In this document: positions 35,846 through 40,832 of the stretch, piece after piece | How the letters are laid out: each line of letters begins with the position of its first letter | Numbering within the stretch: position 1 is the first letter of the stretch | Assembly (NCBI RefSeq): GCF_002931235.1 | Contig: NZ_PSTT01000009.1 | Span: 62,001 to 126,000, forward strand | Direction: 5' to 3' | Length of the DNA stretch: 64,000 nucleotides | From: Subtercola sp. Z020 | GTDB taxonomy: Bacteria > Actinomycetota > Actinomycetes > Actinomycetales > Microbacteriaceae | The notes under the pieces: generated by a model | What the model saw: the letters and a program-made list of their open reading frames with translations, nothing else | Told to the model about the DNA's origin: nothing | Databases searched by the model: none | Program-made: the position numbers and the translations under genes

Positions 35846-37297
35846 TCAGCGAACTTCAGTGTAGAGCGTCGATCGGAGCTCTTCGATCAGTGCCGCGTAG
35901 GCGAGACCGCTGTCCTTGACGGTGCGCCTCTGGGTCTGGTAGTCGACCCTAACGATGCCGAATCGCTTCTCGTAGCCCCAGGCCCACTCGAAGTTGTCGA
36001 GCAACGACCAGACGAAGTACCCGCGAACATCGGCTCCGTCGGCGATCGCGCGCCCCACGGCATCGATGTGCGCGCGGATGTACGCCGTTCGCTCGACATC
36101 GTGCACGCCCCCATCCGGTGCCACCGTGTCGTCATAGGCCGCCCCGTTCTCTGTCACGTAGAGCGGAGGCAGATTCGGGTATTCGTGGCCCAGTCGAACG
36201 AGCAGCCGGGCGAGGCCCTCGGGATGCACCTCCCAGCCCATCGCAGTTCGCGGCAGGTCGCGCGGCGGGAAGGTGACGAACTCCGAACCGGGGAAGGGCG
36301 AACGCCGGGGCCGGGCCGACGGCGAAGGCGGAAGCGGCGACTCCCCCTCGGGGCGGGCGTGCGGATGCCCGCTGACGTTGTCGTCGTGGTAGTGGTTCAC
36401 CCCCAGAAAGTCGAGGGGAGCCGAGATGATGTCGAGGTCGCCCGGGTGGATGTGCTCCTCGAGCCCGAACTCCCGCACGTCGTTCAGCACGTCGTCGGGG
36501 TAGCTCCCGCAGAGCAGGGGGTTCAGGAACAGCCGGTTGAACAGGCCGTCGACACGGCGTGCCGCATCGAGGTCGACCGGGTCGTGCGGGTCGTTCGGCA
36601 CGGCGTTGGTCAGGTTCAGGGTGATTCCGAGCCGGGTCTCCCGGTCATCCCGCTCGCCGAGTCGGCGCAGGCGCCGAACGGCGAGACCGTGCGCGAGGTG
36701 CTGGTGGTGCGCGGCCGCGAGGCCGGCGCGCGGGTCGACGCGGCCGGGTGCATGCTCGCCGGAGACGTACCCGATGAGCGAGGAGCAGAGCGGCTCGTTG
36801 AAGGTGGTCCAGTGCGTGACGCGATCGCCGAGGGCGTCGTACACCGCCTCTGCGTAGTCGGCGAAGCGGTACGCCGTGTCCCTGTTCGCCCACCCGCCCC
36901 TGTCTTCGAGGGCCTGGGGCAGATCCCAGTGGTAGAGCGTGAGCCAGGGGAGGATGTCGGCGTCCAGCAGCTCGTCGACGAGCCGCGAGTAGAAGTCGAG
37001 CCCCTTCTGGTTGACGAAGCGGTCGCCGGGCTTGACCCGTGCCCAGCTCGTCGAGAAGCGGTACGACCCGAGGCCCAGCTGTTTCATCAGCTGCACGTCG
37101 GCGGGCATGCGGTGGTAGTGGTCGACCGCCGATTCCGGAGTGTCGTCGTGCGCGATCGCGCCGGGCTGTTGGGCGAAGTGGTCCCAGATGGAGTCCTCTT
37201 TGCCGTCTTCGTGGGCGGCCCCCTCGATCTGGGCCGCCGCGGTGGCGGAGCCCCAGATGAAGTCGGCGGGCCAGGGGTGCAGTGCGAGGTCGGTCAT
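35846..37297 (-). CDS. bglC: GH1 beta-glucosidase
   Basis: The 483-residue enzyme has the GH1 hallmarks: FIWGSATAAAQIEGA at the N-terminus, the acid/base Glu168 in TTFNEP, and the nucleophile Glu383 in VTENG. It also has LYHWDLPQAL and the aglycone-side DNFEWAWGYEKRFG. It is a retaining cytoplasmic glycosidase (no signal peptide), expected to split cellobiose or aryl/alkyl beta-glucosides imported by the adjacent ABC system. ATG at 37297 is preferred (GAAAGG 6 nt upstream); 37300 overlaps the permease stop. A Pro/Ser/Arg-rich insert is present at ~316-338. Confidence 0.94.
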   Translation of the reverse strand: MTDLALHPWPADFIWGSATAAAQIEGAAHEDGKEDSIWDHFAQQPGAIAHDDTPESAVDHYHRMPADVQLMKQLGLGSYRFSTSWARVKPGDRFVNQKGLDFYSRLVDELLDADILPWLTLYHWDLPQALEDRGGWANRDTAYRFADYAEAVYDALGDRVTHWTTFNEPLCSSLIGYVSGEHAPGRVDPRAGLAAAHHQHLAHGLAVRRLRRLGERDDRETRLGITLNLTNAVPNDPHDPVDLDAARRVDGLFNRLFLNPLLCGSYPDDVLNDVREFGLEEHIHPGDLDIISAPLDFLGVNHYHDDNVSGHPHARPEGESPLPPSPSARPRRSPFPGSEFVTFPPRDLPRTAMGWEVHPEGLARLLVRLGHEYPNLPPLYVTENGAAYDDTVAPDGGVHDVERTAYIRAHIDAVGRAIADGADVRGYFVWSLLDNFEWAWGYEKRFGIVRVDYQTQRRTVKDSGLAYAALIEELRSTLYTEVR

Positions 37298-37299
37298 CA

Positions 37300-38193
37300 T
37301 CAGCCTTTCACCGCGCCGGCCATGATGCCCGAGACCAGTTGGCGGCCGGCGAGCACGAAGAGAACGAGAAGGGGGATGGTCGCCAGCACGGCACCGGCGA
37401 GCACGATGCTGTAGTCGACGTACTTCGCCGACTGCAGCTGGCTCAGCGCCACCTGCAGGGTGGGGTTCTGCGGTACGACGAGAAGCGGCCAGAGGTAGTC
37501 GGTCCATGCGGTCATGAACGTGAAGAGGCCGAGGATCGCCATCGCGGGCCGGGCCGCCGGAATGCCGACGTGCCAGAACGTGGCGATCATGCTGGCGCCG
37601 TCGACGCGGGCGGCCTCGATCAGCTCCTCGGGAATGACGTCGACGAGGTACTGGCGCATGAAGAAGACCCCGAACGCCGTCACGAGGGTCGGCACGACCA
37701 CGGCTCCGAGCGAGCCGGTCCAGCCGAACTGCTTCATCACCATGAAGAGCGGGATGATGCCGAGCTGGGTCGGAACGGCGAGAGTCGCCACGACGAACAC
37801 CAGCAGCCCCTCACGGCCGCGGAACTTCAGTTTCGCGAAGGAGTAGCCCGCCAGCGTCGAGAAGAAGACGACGCTCACCGTGATGATCGCCGACACCACG
37901 ACGCTGTTCAGCAGCGACATCCAGAACGGAACGGTGTCCATCACGGCGCCGACGTTCTGCCAGAACAAGCCGCCCGGCAGCAGCGGCGGCCAGGTGTCGG
38001 TGAGCACCGAGCTCGGGCTCGAGCCGGCGACGAACGACCAGTAGAGCGGGTACGTGCCGCCGATGAAGAACGCGATCAGCAGGCCGTAGGTCAGAAACCC
38101 GGGCCGGCGGTCGATGCCGAGCGGCTTGCGGCTCTTCGGCTGCGGAGCCGCGGGGTCGGCTTCGGCGCGGGGGCGGGTGATGGTGGCAGTCAT
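37300..38193 (-). CDS. CUT1 sugar ABC transporter permease (MalG-type, CebG-like)
   Basis: The 297-residue permease has six helices, the EAA loop IEAARVDGASMIATFWHVG and a GIMAGAVKG C-terminus. Its start overlaps the upstream permease stop by 4 nt, and its stop overlaps the GH1 start region (TGATG). It forms the channel with its partner at 38190-39287. Confidence 0.93.
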   Translation of the reverse strand: MTATITRPRAEADPAAPQPKSRKPLGIDRRPGFLTYGLLIAFFIGGTYPLYWSFVAGSSPSSVLTDTWPPLLPGGLFWQNVGAVMDTVPFWMSLLNSVVVSAIITVSVVFFSTLAGYSFAKLKFRGREGLLVFVVATLAVPTQLGIIPLFMVMKQFGWTGSLGAVVVPTLVTAFGVFFMRQYLVDVIPEELIEAARVDGASMIATFWHVGIPAARPAMAILGLFTFMTAWTDYLWPLLVVPQNPTLQVALSQLQSAKYVDYSIVLAGAVLATIPLLVLFVLAGRQLVSGIMAGAVKG

Positions 38194-39287
38194 GAGCGTT
38201 TCTCCTCGGCCGCGGCGATGACGGCGAGCGAACCCTGGGCCGCCCGGTCGGTCTTCTGCTGGTTGTGGTCGTTCAAGAGCTTCGTCATTCGGCGCTTCGA
38301 CACGCGCGCCTCTGTCGACGCGATGCGCCGCGAGACCAAGAAGTTGAGCACGCCGAAGAGCACGATGATGAGAAAGAGCAGCCAGGCGACGGCCGAGGCC
38401 TTGCCGAAGTTCTGCCGGTTGAAGGCCAGGTCCCACAGGTAGAGAACGGTGGTCTGGTACTGGCGCTGGGGCCCGCCGGGCGTGGCGGTGGTGGGGTTGA
38501 ACAGCTTCGGCTCTGTGAAGATCTGCAGGCCGCCGACCGTCGCCGTGATGATGACGAAGATCATGGTGGGGCGGATGCTCGGCAGCGTCATCGAGAAGAA
38601 CCGACGCACGGCGCCCGCGCCGTCGAGGGCTGCGGACTCGTAGATGTCGCGCGGCACGGCCTGCATCGCGGCGAGCAGGATGAGGGCGTTGTACCCGGTC
38701 CAGCGCCAGTTCACCATGGTGGCGATCGCGACGTGCGAGGGGAACGTCTCGGTCTTCCACATCACGGGGTCGAGGTGGAACGACGCGAGCAGGTTGTTGA
38801 TCAGCCCGTACTTCTCGTCGAATGCGCTCGAGAAGATGAGCGTCACCGCCACCGGGGTGACGACGTAGGGAATCAGAACGCTCATGCGCCAGAAGGTCTT
38901 GGCCCTGATGTTCTGGTCGAGAACGGCCGCGATGAGCACGGCTCCGACGAGCTGCGGGATGGCCGAGAGCAGAAAGATGCTGACCGTGTTGAAGAGGCTG
39001 TTCCAGAAGAAGGGGTCATTCAGTTCGGCGACGTAGTTGTCGAGACCGATGAAGCCGGCCGGGCCGGTCAGCAGGTTCCACTTGTTGAGCGAGACGACGA
39101 AGGTGTAGCCGAGGGGAAAGAGGCCGACGAGGCCGAACAGAATGAAGAAAGGGGCGATGTAGATATAGGGGGAAGCCTTCACGTCGAACCGGCTGAGGCG
39201 GTGGCGGAAGGGCTGCTTGTCTTTCGGCGCCCGTCGGGGCGGTGGTGGTGTCGTGGTCGCCGGGGGTGGCGTGAGGGTGGCGGTCAT
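38190..39287 (-). CDS. CUT1 sugar ABC transporter permease (MalF-type, CebF-like)
   Basis: The 365-residue permease has a Pro/Thr-rich cytoplasmic N-terminus (~20 residues), six helices starting at YIYIAPFFILFGLVG, and the EAA loop YESAALDGAGAVRRFFSMT. A charged ~60-residue C-terminal tail (RIASTEARVSKRRMTKLL onward) is longer than usual. It is separated from the SBP gene by 143 bp containing three hairpins. Confidence 0.93.
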   Translation of the reverse strand: MTATLTPPPATTTPPPPRRAPKDKQPFRHRLSRFDVKASPYIYIAPFFILFGLVGLFPLGYTFVVSLNKWNLLTGPAGFIGLDNYVAELNDPFFWNSLFNTVSIFLLSAIPQLVGAVLIAAVLDQNIRAKTFWRMSVLIPYVVTPVAVTLIFSSAFDEKYGLINNLLASFHLDPVMWKTETFPSHVAIATMVNWRWTGYNALILLAAMQAVPRDIYESAALDGAGAVRRFFSMTLPSIRPTMIFVIITATVGGLQIFTEPKLFNPTTATPGGPQRQYQTTVLYLWDLAFNRQNFGKASAVAWLLFLIIVLFGVLNFLVSRRIASTEARVSKRRMTKLLNDHNQQKTDRAAQGSLAVIAAAEEKRS

Positions 39288-39321
39288 GAACCTTCTCCGA
39301 TGGATGCCTGGGTGGGGATGC

Positions 39322-39422
39322 GGCGGCGAGCTGCGCCGCCCTTGGGGGCGGACGGCCGTTCAGGCCGCCCGCCGCGTGAGATGCGCCGCGCTGGGGGCAA
39401 GCGGCTGTTCAAGCCGCTTGCC
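39322..39422 (-). repeat. Three consecutive hairpins, two of them a covarying 45-nt repeat
   Basis: In transcript order: hairpin B (39422-39396, 11-bp stem GGCAAGCGGCT/AGCCGCTTGCC), hairpin A (39373-39347, 11-bp stem GGCGGACGGCC/GGCCGCCCGCC with one G-U pair in RNA), and hairpin C (39340-39322, 7-bp stem). A and B share the loop GTTCA (plus-strand reading) and lie in direct repeats 39332-39376 and 39382-39425, 50 bp apart. The stems differ at three pairs, each compensated on the other arm. This argues for conserved RNA structure between SBP and permease genes. Confidence 0.8.
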
Positions 39423-39430
39423 GCGCTCGC

Positions 39431-40762
39431 TTATTTGTTGACGACGAGCTGGTTCAGCAGCGTGATCGCGTTGTTCCAGGCGGTCGGGCCGTCGGCCTTG
39501 CCGGAGTCGATCTCCTGGATCGACGGGCCGAAGACCTGCGACTGGATAACCGAGTCATCCGGACCCTTGTACTGGGCGACGACACCTTTCGAGCGGTCGG
39601 CGAGGATCTGGCCGACCGGCGCGTTGTTGAAGAACGTCGAGAGGTCGTTCGTTCCGGTCACCGCAGGCGAGGTCTGGGCCGCCGTGACGCTCGGGAACGT
39701 GCCGGCCACTCCGAAGGCCGCAGCCTCGGAGTCGGCGCTGGTCAGGAACGCGGCGAGGTCCGCAGCCTCCTGCGGGTGCTTCGACTGCGTCGGAACGGTC
39801 AGGAAGCTGCCGCCCCAGTTCGCCGCGCCGCCGGGGAAGACGTTGGCGAAGTCCCACCCGGTCGCGGCGCTGCCGCCCGCCGAGGTGACCTGGCCCTTGA
39901 CGACCCCGAGCATCCAGCCCGGGCAGACGAACGTCGAGAACGTTCCGTCGGTGAAGGCCTTGCCCTTGCCCCAGTCCCATGCGGTCTGGTTGGCCGAGAG
40001 GCCGGAGGTGGTGGCGGTCGACAGCTTGCCCCAGAGGGCCTTGAGGTCGGCGTTGCCGTCGACGTTCAGGCTGCCGTCGGTCTTGTAGTAGCCCTCCTTC
40101 TGCTGGTTCACCATGGCGTTCCAGAGAAAGCCGGACTGGTCGTAGAAGGCCTTGCCCGTGGCGGCGTGGTACTTCTGGCCGACGGCGAAGTAGTCGTCCC
40201 AGGTGGCGTTGTCTCCGCCGAACAGGGTGGCGACGGCGTCTCGGTCGGTCGGGAGGCCTGCTGCGGCGAATGCCGCGCTGTTGTAGCAGAGCCCCTCGGG
40301 GCCGATGTCGGAACCGTAGCCGATGATGCGGCCGTTCGAGTCGGTGGCCTGCTTCAGCTTCCAGTCGACCCAGCGGTCCTTGATGTCGTTGGCGCCGTAC
40401 TGGCTGAGGTCGTTGAACTGGTCGGAGACCTGCATCACCGCGCTCAGCCACCCCTCTTCGACGGCCTGCACGTCGGGGAGCCCCGCCCCGGCGGCCTGCT
40501 TCGTCTGCCAGTCCGTCTTGGCGTTGTCACCGGTGTCGATGTTGGTTGCCTTGATCGTGATGTTCGGGTGCGCCGCCTCGTACTGCTTGTAGAGGTCGTC
40601 GTAGCCCATCGTGTTGAAGGTCGTGACCGTCAGCGTGATGGGATCGGTCGAGCTGCCGGCGGCGGTGCTCGAACCGCCCCCTGAACATCCGGTGGCCAGC
40701 AGGGCGAAGGCGGCGGCGCTTGCAACGGCCGCCAGGCCCTTTGTTCGTCGTGAAAACTTCAC
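39431..40762 (-). CDS. CUT1 beta-glucoside-binding lipoprotein (CebE-like)
   Basis: The signal peptide ends in LLATGC (Cys26) followed by a Gly/Ser linker and a family 1 solute-binding domain (ITLTVTTFNTMGYDDLY, NITIKATNIDTGDNAKTDW, FVCPGWMLG). GTG at 40762 is the start, with AAGGAG 5 nt upstream; longer reading-frame starts fall in the operator. It is the first gene of the operon with permeases, GH1 and the CebR-like regulator, making a cello-oligosaccharide or other beta-glucoside the probable ligand. Confidence 0.93.
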   Translation of the reverse strand: MKFSRRTKGLAAVASAAAFALLATGCSGGGSSTAAGSSTDPITLTVTTFNTMGYDDLYKQYEAAHPNITIKATNIDTGDNAKTDWQTKQAAGAGLPDVQAVEEGWLSAVMQVSDQFNDLSQYGANDIKDRWVDWKLKQATDSNGRIIGYGSDIGPEGLCYNSAAFAAAGLPTDRDAVATLFGGDNATWDDYFAVGQKYHAATGKAFYDQSGFLWNAMVNQQKEGYYKTDGSLNVDGNADLKALWGKLSTATTSGLSANQTAWDWGKGKAFTDGTFSTFVCPGWMLGVVKGQVTSAGGSAATGWDFANVFPGGAANWGGSFLTVPTQSKHPQEAADLAAFLTSADSEAAAFGVAGTFPSVTAAQTSPAVTGTNDLSTFFNNAPVGQILADRSKGVVAQYKGPDDSVIQSQVFGPSIQEIDSGKADGPTAWNNAITLLNQLVVNK

Positions 40763-40783
40763 GGTCACTCCTTTGTGTGCGTT

Positions 40784-40832
40784 TGAGAGAGCGCTCTCAC
40801 GACGCGATGAACATCTCATGAGAGCGCTCTCA
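40784..40832. promoter_or_regulatory. Two CebR-like operators
   Basis: GAGAGCGCTCTC occurs at 40787-40798 and, as the full TGAGAGCGCTCTCA, at 40819-40832. The centres are 33 bp apart, close to three helical turns. The motif differs by one symmetric base pair from TGGGAGCGCTCCCA, the known CebR operator of Streptomyces. Both lie between the promoter and the SBP start. Confidence 0.88.

Follow-up and report, generated by a model that had tools for sequence, protein, structure and literature searches.

A stop-codon-anchored, REP-like repeat of Subtercola as a possible 3' barrier behind a sugar-binding-protein gene

Most of what is known about REP-like hairpins comes from Gram-negative bacteria, where the best-studied class is linked to RAYT transposases. 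Elsewhere among bacteria, hairpins at gene ends protect the mRNA upstream of them or tune it. Among the ABC operons of Escherichia coli that are regulated by decay, the segment encoding the binding protein is the stabilised one (PMC5927463). E. coli REPs no more than 15 nt from a stop codon have been reported to lower translation of the gene that precedes them (PMC12306157), and stem-loops behind binding-protein genes serve as internal terminators in Ruminiclostridium (PMC9045158). GTAG-tagged REPs often supply TAG stop codons through their GTAG termini (PMC3733652).

Here we describe hairpins between a binding-protein and a permease gene in a 64,000-nt stretch of the genome of Subtercola sp. 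Z020 (hereafter the window), which are two copies, in one array, of a structured repeat of about 50 nt that is dispersed in the genus Subtercola. Like the malE-malF REP of E. coli, the repeat places a hairpin after the gene for the binding protein in a sugar ABC operon and belongs to a dispersed extragenic family, and by analogy the binding-protein mRNA would be expected to be the stabilised segment (PMC5927463); unlike that REP, it is actinobacterial, unrelated in sequence, built as a three-helix unit of about 50 nt with a UGAAC loop, and starts at the stop codon itself. With the GTAG/CGTC REPs (PMC3733652), it shares short dispersed palindromes downstream of genes, G.U pairs in the stems, some copies inside genes and restriction of families to a genus. 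It differs from them in the missing GTAG tag on the first unit, in TAA as the commonest stop, in head-to-tail arrays with few inverted (HH/TT) dimers, and in the absence of a Y1 (RAYT) transposase from 12 Subtercola genomes. Actinobacteria are not named among the phyla with GTAG/CGTC REPs in the available part of PMC3733652. CGTC occurs between some tandem Subtercola units. The stop-proximal E. coli REPs (PMC12306157) resemble the repeat in lying at most 15 nt from the stop, a distance that is exactly 0 nt in half of the Subtercola arrays. Clostridial stem-loops acting as internal terminators or in selective RNA processing (PMC9045158, PMC8219983) also stand behind binding-protein genes of ABC operons, but they are locus-specific, whereas the Subtercola repeat forms a family and has no U-rich tract.

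The operon lies on the minus strand and includes an ORF for an extracellular sugar-binding protein (39431-40819; SBP_bac_8/SBP_bac_1, Pfam SBP_bac_8), whose true start codon is probably further inside than the start of the ORF. Two UgpA/UgpE-like permeases follow, one of the MalF/UgpA type (38190-39287) and one of the MalG/UgpE type (37300-38196) that overlaps the end of the first, and then a GH1 beta-glucosidase (35846-37306; TIGR03356, 556 bits against a cut-off of 478.5). The beta-glucosidase together with the permeases makes a role in beta-glucoside or cello-oligosaccharide use likely, and the label cebE/cebF for the binding-protein/permease pair is plausible rather than proven. A preliminary description of this DNA had placed the hairpins between binding-protein and permease genes, and the domain assignments (Pfam SBP_bac_8; UgpA/UgpE-like permeases) give the same order. 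The spacer from the TAA of the binding protein (39433-39431) to the first permease (39287) measures 143 nt.

Two covariance models were used: R1, built from four units without the stop codon, which matches many copies across the genus, and R2, a 52-column model of the complete unit including the stop. The unit folds into three helices, P1 of 3 bp, P2 of 4 bp and an 11-bp P3 closed by the UGAAC loop; a bulged A, an unpaired GG of 2 nt and an internal loop of 4 nt complete the structure. Unit a is complete (39382-39433, minus strand; R2 match of 76.6 bits, E 3.5e-15), and its columns 1-3 are the TAA stop of the binding protein (39431-39433). The minimum free energy (MFE) fold contains the same helices, P1 at 39430-39428/39385-39383, P2 at 39426-39423/39391-39388 and P3 at 39422-39412/39406-39396, around the loop at 39411-39407. 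Unit b is a second copy placed head to tail on the same strand (39333-39377; R1 match of 62 bits, with its stem in the fold); its P3 (39373-39363/39357-39347) and UGAAC loop (39362-39358) are clear, its outer helices are weak, and R2 matches the P3 part alone (36.3 bits). These units correspond to the direct repeats first described (a, 39425-39382; b, 39376-39332), with their 11-bp stems and a GTTCA loop that reads UGAAC on the minus strand, and the three stem pairs said to differ on both arms do so (pairs 4, 5 and 11; A-U/G-C, A-U/G-C and U-A/C-G). That account lacked a fourth, one-sided difference between the copies, G-C to G.U, and drew copy a too small: with outer helices of 3 and 4 bp, the unit spans 39433-39382 and starts at the stop codon. 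The third hairpin it reported is present with 7 bp in the fold (39340-39322, minus strand) and ends 34 nt before the first permease, but it does not belong to the repeated unit; it has the GGCGGCG tail in common with unit b.

The 161-nt stretch folds at -78.8 kcal/mol, compared with -65.5 (sd 3.7) for shuffled sequences (z = -3.6), and none of 200 shuffles reached so low a value. A repeat search of 39200-39500 reported no repeats, as the copies have only short exact seeds in common, and a loose pattern allowing 3 mismatches was uninformative, with 514/526 matches in the genome of origin against about 945 for the reversed control. Rfam covariance models found no match above chance in the window region and 12 further loci, by which a known RNA family was rejected. 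An intrinsic terminator was likewise rejected for this array: no minus-strand site of the type GC stem plus U tract was found in 39200-39500, and the stems are followed by CCCCC, with no U-rich tail.

Across the genus, both models detect the repeat in 11 of 12 Subtercola genomes; R2 counts about 114 copies, ranging from none in G003 through the two of the window's own genome (its single array) to 31 in G007, the maximum (G-numbers denote genomes and L-numbers loci in the repeat and junction comparisons). In the retrieved loci, 118 matches fall into 78 arrays, most of them arranged head to tail with a spacing of about 49-51 bp; the consensus of the unit is TAR-GYGAGCGC-GGCGGGCGSCC-UGAAC-GGSCGCTCGC-YCCA-GCGC-GG-CRC-G. 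In a search of 199 genomes of the bacterial family (85 genera), Subtercola alone gave convincing matches, next to one weak match without the loop; this search scored few candidates per genome and may have overlooked weak relatives. A strict exact pattern matched four times among 84,980 species, each time in Subtercola boreus, and a literature search found nothing on Subtercola repeats. As a short palindrome (20-60 nt) in many dispersed extragenic copies, the element is a REP in the broad sense. At four loci (L041, L042, L043 and L068), an unrelated second inverted repeat (TCGACTSGGGAGTTTCAGTCG...CGACTGAAACTCCC), which is often found just downstream of the stop-anchored one, is possibly a transcription terminator or another repeat family.

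In an alignment of all 118 copies (A4), which was fitted to the structure, 95.3% of cells are paired, both partners have changed at 16 of 18 pairs in a compensatory way, and double-change cells number 180 against 44 +/- 6 in shuffles, with no shuffle out of 500 matching; the gap-free 22-row alignment A3 gives the same picture, and sliding the arms against each other makes the signal collapse. Compared between species, copies that follow the same gene, some of which may be older duplicates rather than orthologues, retain 26 doubly changed and 13 one-sided pairs, with 25 pairs broken. Read on the mRNA strand, wobble pairs comprise 148 G.U/U.G against 47 A.C/C.A, and therefore the sense strand folds best. 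The compensated changes after insertion and this strand bias suggest in-place selection on the transcribed strand. Selection for structure and a conserved loop, both proposed earlier from the two window copies, thus hold for the family: copies in different species differ by compensated pairs, and the loop is exactly UGAAC in 88 of 112 distinct copies.

The repeat is anchored to stop codons. With R2, the stop of the upstream gene falls exactly on columns 1-3 in 41 of 78 first-in-array units (22 TAA, 13 TAG and 6 TGA). Since R2 had been trained with the stop included, the anchoring was retested with the stop-free R1, and 29 of 58 arrays shared one identical offset (0), the next commonest being 3. 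The preference of REPs for 3' ends is also seen, 43 of the 58 R1 arrays lying within -15 to +40 of an ORF end. First units open with TAA, TAG, TGA or TGG and have no fixed G before them. The coding-like ORFs of the window show the opposite stop usage (27 TGA, 5 TAG and 1 TAA), and the preference of the repeat for TAA may reflect its target or high expression of the host genes. Where the stop is missing at columns 1-3, the gene often reads into the repeat and terminates inside it: PepP has a VEAWIAR-like end in species lacking the repeat and ends as VEAWVSAAGA... where the repeat encodes the tail and stop. In five such read-in genes (L118, L109, L144, L126 and L142), the stop lies within the hairpin loop, which is altered at L109 (UAUAAC) and L144 (UAUGAC) to give an in-frame stop.

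The repeat follows housekeeping genes and some genes for binding proteins. Among forty host proteins that were scanned are guaB, GMP synthase (guaA), prfB, rplY, typA, RNase J (rnj), Dps, glpX, pepP, a CCA-adding-type enzyme and CoaE, as well as six types of binding protein (SBP_bac_8, SBP_bac_1, SBP_bac_5, PstS-like, NMT1 and Peripla_BP_6). At L153, the copy stands directly behind the gene of RNase J, itself an mRNA-decay enzyme. Binding-protein genes look over-represented, in a post hoc comparison with small numbers and with cebE as the seed: a genome has on average about 20 genes of the SBP_bac_8 and SBP_bac_5 types combined, and these types account for 3 of 41 host ortholog groups. Most hosts are not binding-protein genes, and the repeat is therefore without a dedicated ratio function. 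The original proposal of an element of the cebE-cebF operon dedicated to the binding-protein:permease ratio fails on its occurrence behind guaB, guaA, prfB, rplY, typA, rnj and dps, and an operon-specific regulatory RNA was rejected on the dozens of unrelated genes that it follows. By analogy with known REPs, an effect on the ratio through mRNA protection is plausible.

Presence at orthologous sites is patchy. The repeat follows pstS in G006, G010 and G004, with the site empty in nine other genomes that encode an identical C-terminus, and follows dps in G010, G007 and G004 but in none of the other nine. Behind guaB, it occurs as a sense copy in G004 and as inverted copies in G007 (L229), G008 (L238) and G002 (L239), and nowhere else in the genus set. 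After the inverted copies, roughly the final 12 bases of guaB (TACCGCCGYTAG) are repeated, a duplicated end that occurs twice in G008; this looks like insertion with target duplication, seen at guaB alone. Because the pstS, dps, guaB and cebE sites are free of the repeat in most species whose proteins end identically, the copies appear to insert at gene ends. A RAYT-driven REP was rejected, as the Y1 transposase PF01797 was detected in none of the 12 Subtercola genomes although the controls were positive, and no mobilising enzyme linked to the repeat was found, Y1_Tnp being the sole type tested.

We compared the junction itself between the window and 17 relatives in which binding protein and permease could be aligned in a whole-genome search. 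The unit of the window recurs only in G004 (two copies) and G010 (one copy), and sister genomes differ, G007 lacking it beside G004, and G006 and G002 beside G010. Nevertheless, 15 of the 17 junctions with a spacer carry a strong hairpin, defined as one outdone by no more than a single shuffle in 100 (L016 and L027 fail this threshold, and L010 has no spacer), and the hairpin sequences are unrelated between genera. Junctions lacking the stems had been named as evidence against a role at this place. The outcome is divided: most relatives lack the Subtercola repeat, but nearly all have another strong hairpin, and therefore the site tends to hold a hairpin, yet the Subtercola repeat is not conserved there. 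A counterpoint to a function at the junction is G003, the closest relative by protein identity, which has no spacer. Its binding-protein TAG abuts the permease ATG (L010, around 1498-1500) with no obvious ribosome-binding site, repeat copies are absent genome-wide, and the junction may be a real deletion or an assembly artefact. The cebE-cebF spacers of L012 and L014 contain hairpins with GGTTGAGTA...TACTCAACC arms; at L100, L102 and L106, GTTGAG stands directly 5' of the TAR of the repeat, as if this family and the stop-anchored one had been joined.

Several other explanations must be weighed. A selfish REP/MITE-like repeat would bring no benefit here, target TAR/TRR gene ends because they are harmless, and keep its hairpin for spread, as a DNA hairpin recognised by an enzyme. 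The patchy presence, tandem amplification, diversity of host genes, copies overlapping coding ends, strong TAA/TAG preference against the TGA bias of the window, and guaB copies in both orientations with a duplicated gene end all fit such an origin; the compensated differences between orthologous copies, the sense-strand G.U bias and the lack of a linked transposase (Y1_Tnp tested) do not, and we consider a purely selfish repeat possible but doubtful. The compensated differences could themselves be a product of DNA template switching inside the palindrome, since quasipalindrome correction makes the arms match without any selection on RNA. However, P1 and P2 covary too, although conserved asymmetric internal loops separate them, and frequent G.U pairs stay uncorrected on one strand, which makes this explanation rather improbable.

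Two further alternatives grant the hairpin a function of another kind. Acting at translation termination, the structure would be positioned beneath the terminating ribosome, or just ahead of it, and lower upstream output or stall ribosomes. Such an effect would suit the zero distance from the stop in half of the arrays and has been reported for E. coli REPs within 15 nt of stops (PMC12306157); this opposite direction counts against a stabilising role. We regard it as unlikely, as the hosts include genes expected to be strongly expressed (guaB, rplY, typA, dps and pstS), for which lowered output would be odd. The position between binding protein and permease and the Ruminiclostridium stem-loops (PMC9045158) would also be compatible with a transcription attenuator, in which part of the transcription would end at the array, past the binding protein. 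Numerous copies stand between convergent genes, a setting that would allow either role, and the stems run into CCCCC rather than a U-rich tail, so that we judge attenuation distinctly unlikely.

With a probability of roughly 0.6, we favour the reading that this REP-like Subtercola repeat, placed at stop codons, acts in the present operon as an intercistronic 3' barrier shielding the binding-protein mRNA. We propose a hypothetical sequence of steps in which (i) a unit would insert directly behind, or overlapping, a stop codon; (ii) the inserted unit could amplify head to tail; (iii) transcription of the upstream gene would place it at the start of the 3' UTR, where it would fold as RNA; (iv) in this operon, the array would form a barrier that keeps 3'-5' exonucleases away from the binding-protein mRNA, and it may slow termination or readthrough into the permeases; and (v) the shielded mRNA would allow the binding protein to be made in excess. 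By analogy with malE-malF, for which such protection has been shown, the array probably stabilises the binding-protein mRNA, and in related genera the unrelated hairpins at the same junction would fill the same role. More tentatively, the element may be specific to the genus and insert precisely at stop codons, or itself provide the stop, as a ready-made structured 3' UTR; it would spread by a non-RAYT route and then be kept as a functional RNA with the conserved UGAAC loop as a recognition site.

In summary, the Subtercola repeat is best read as a REP-like 3'-UTR element new to the Actinobacteria. Compact, exactly anchored at stops, strongly covarying and without a RAYT, this actinobacterial family constitutes a natural experiment: the same gene occurs with and without the element in sister species, and the role of REPs at gene ends, as well as their spread, is therefore directly testable.
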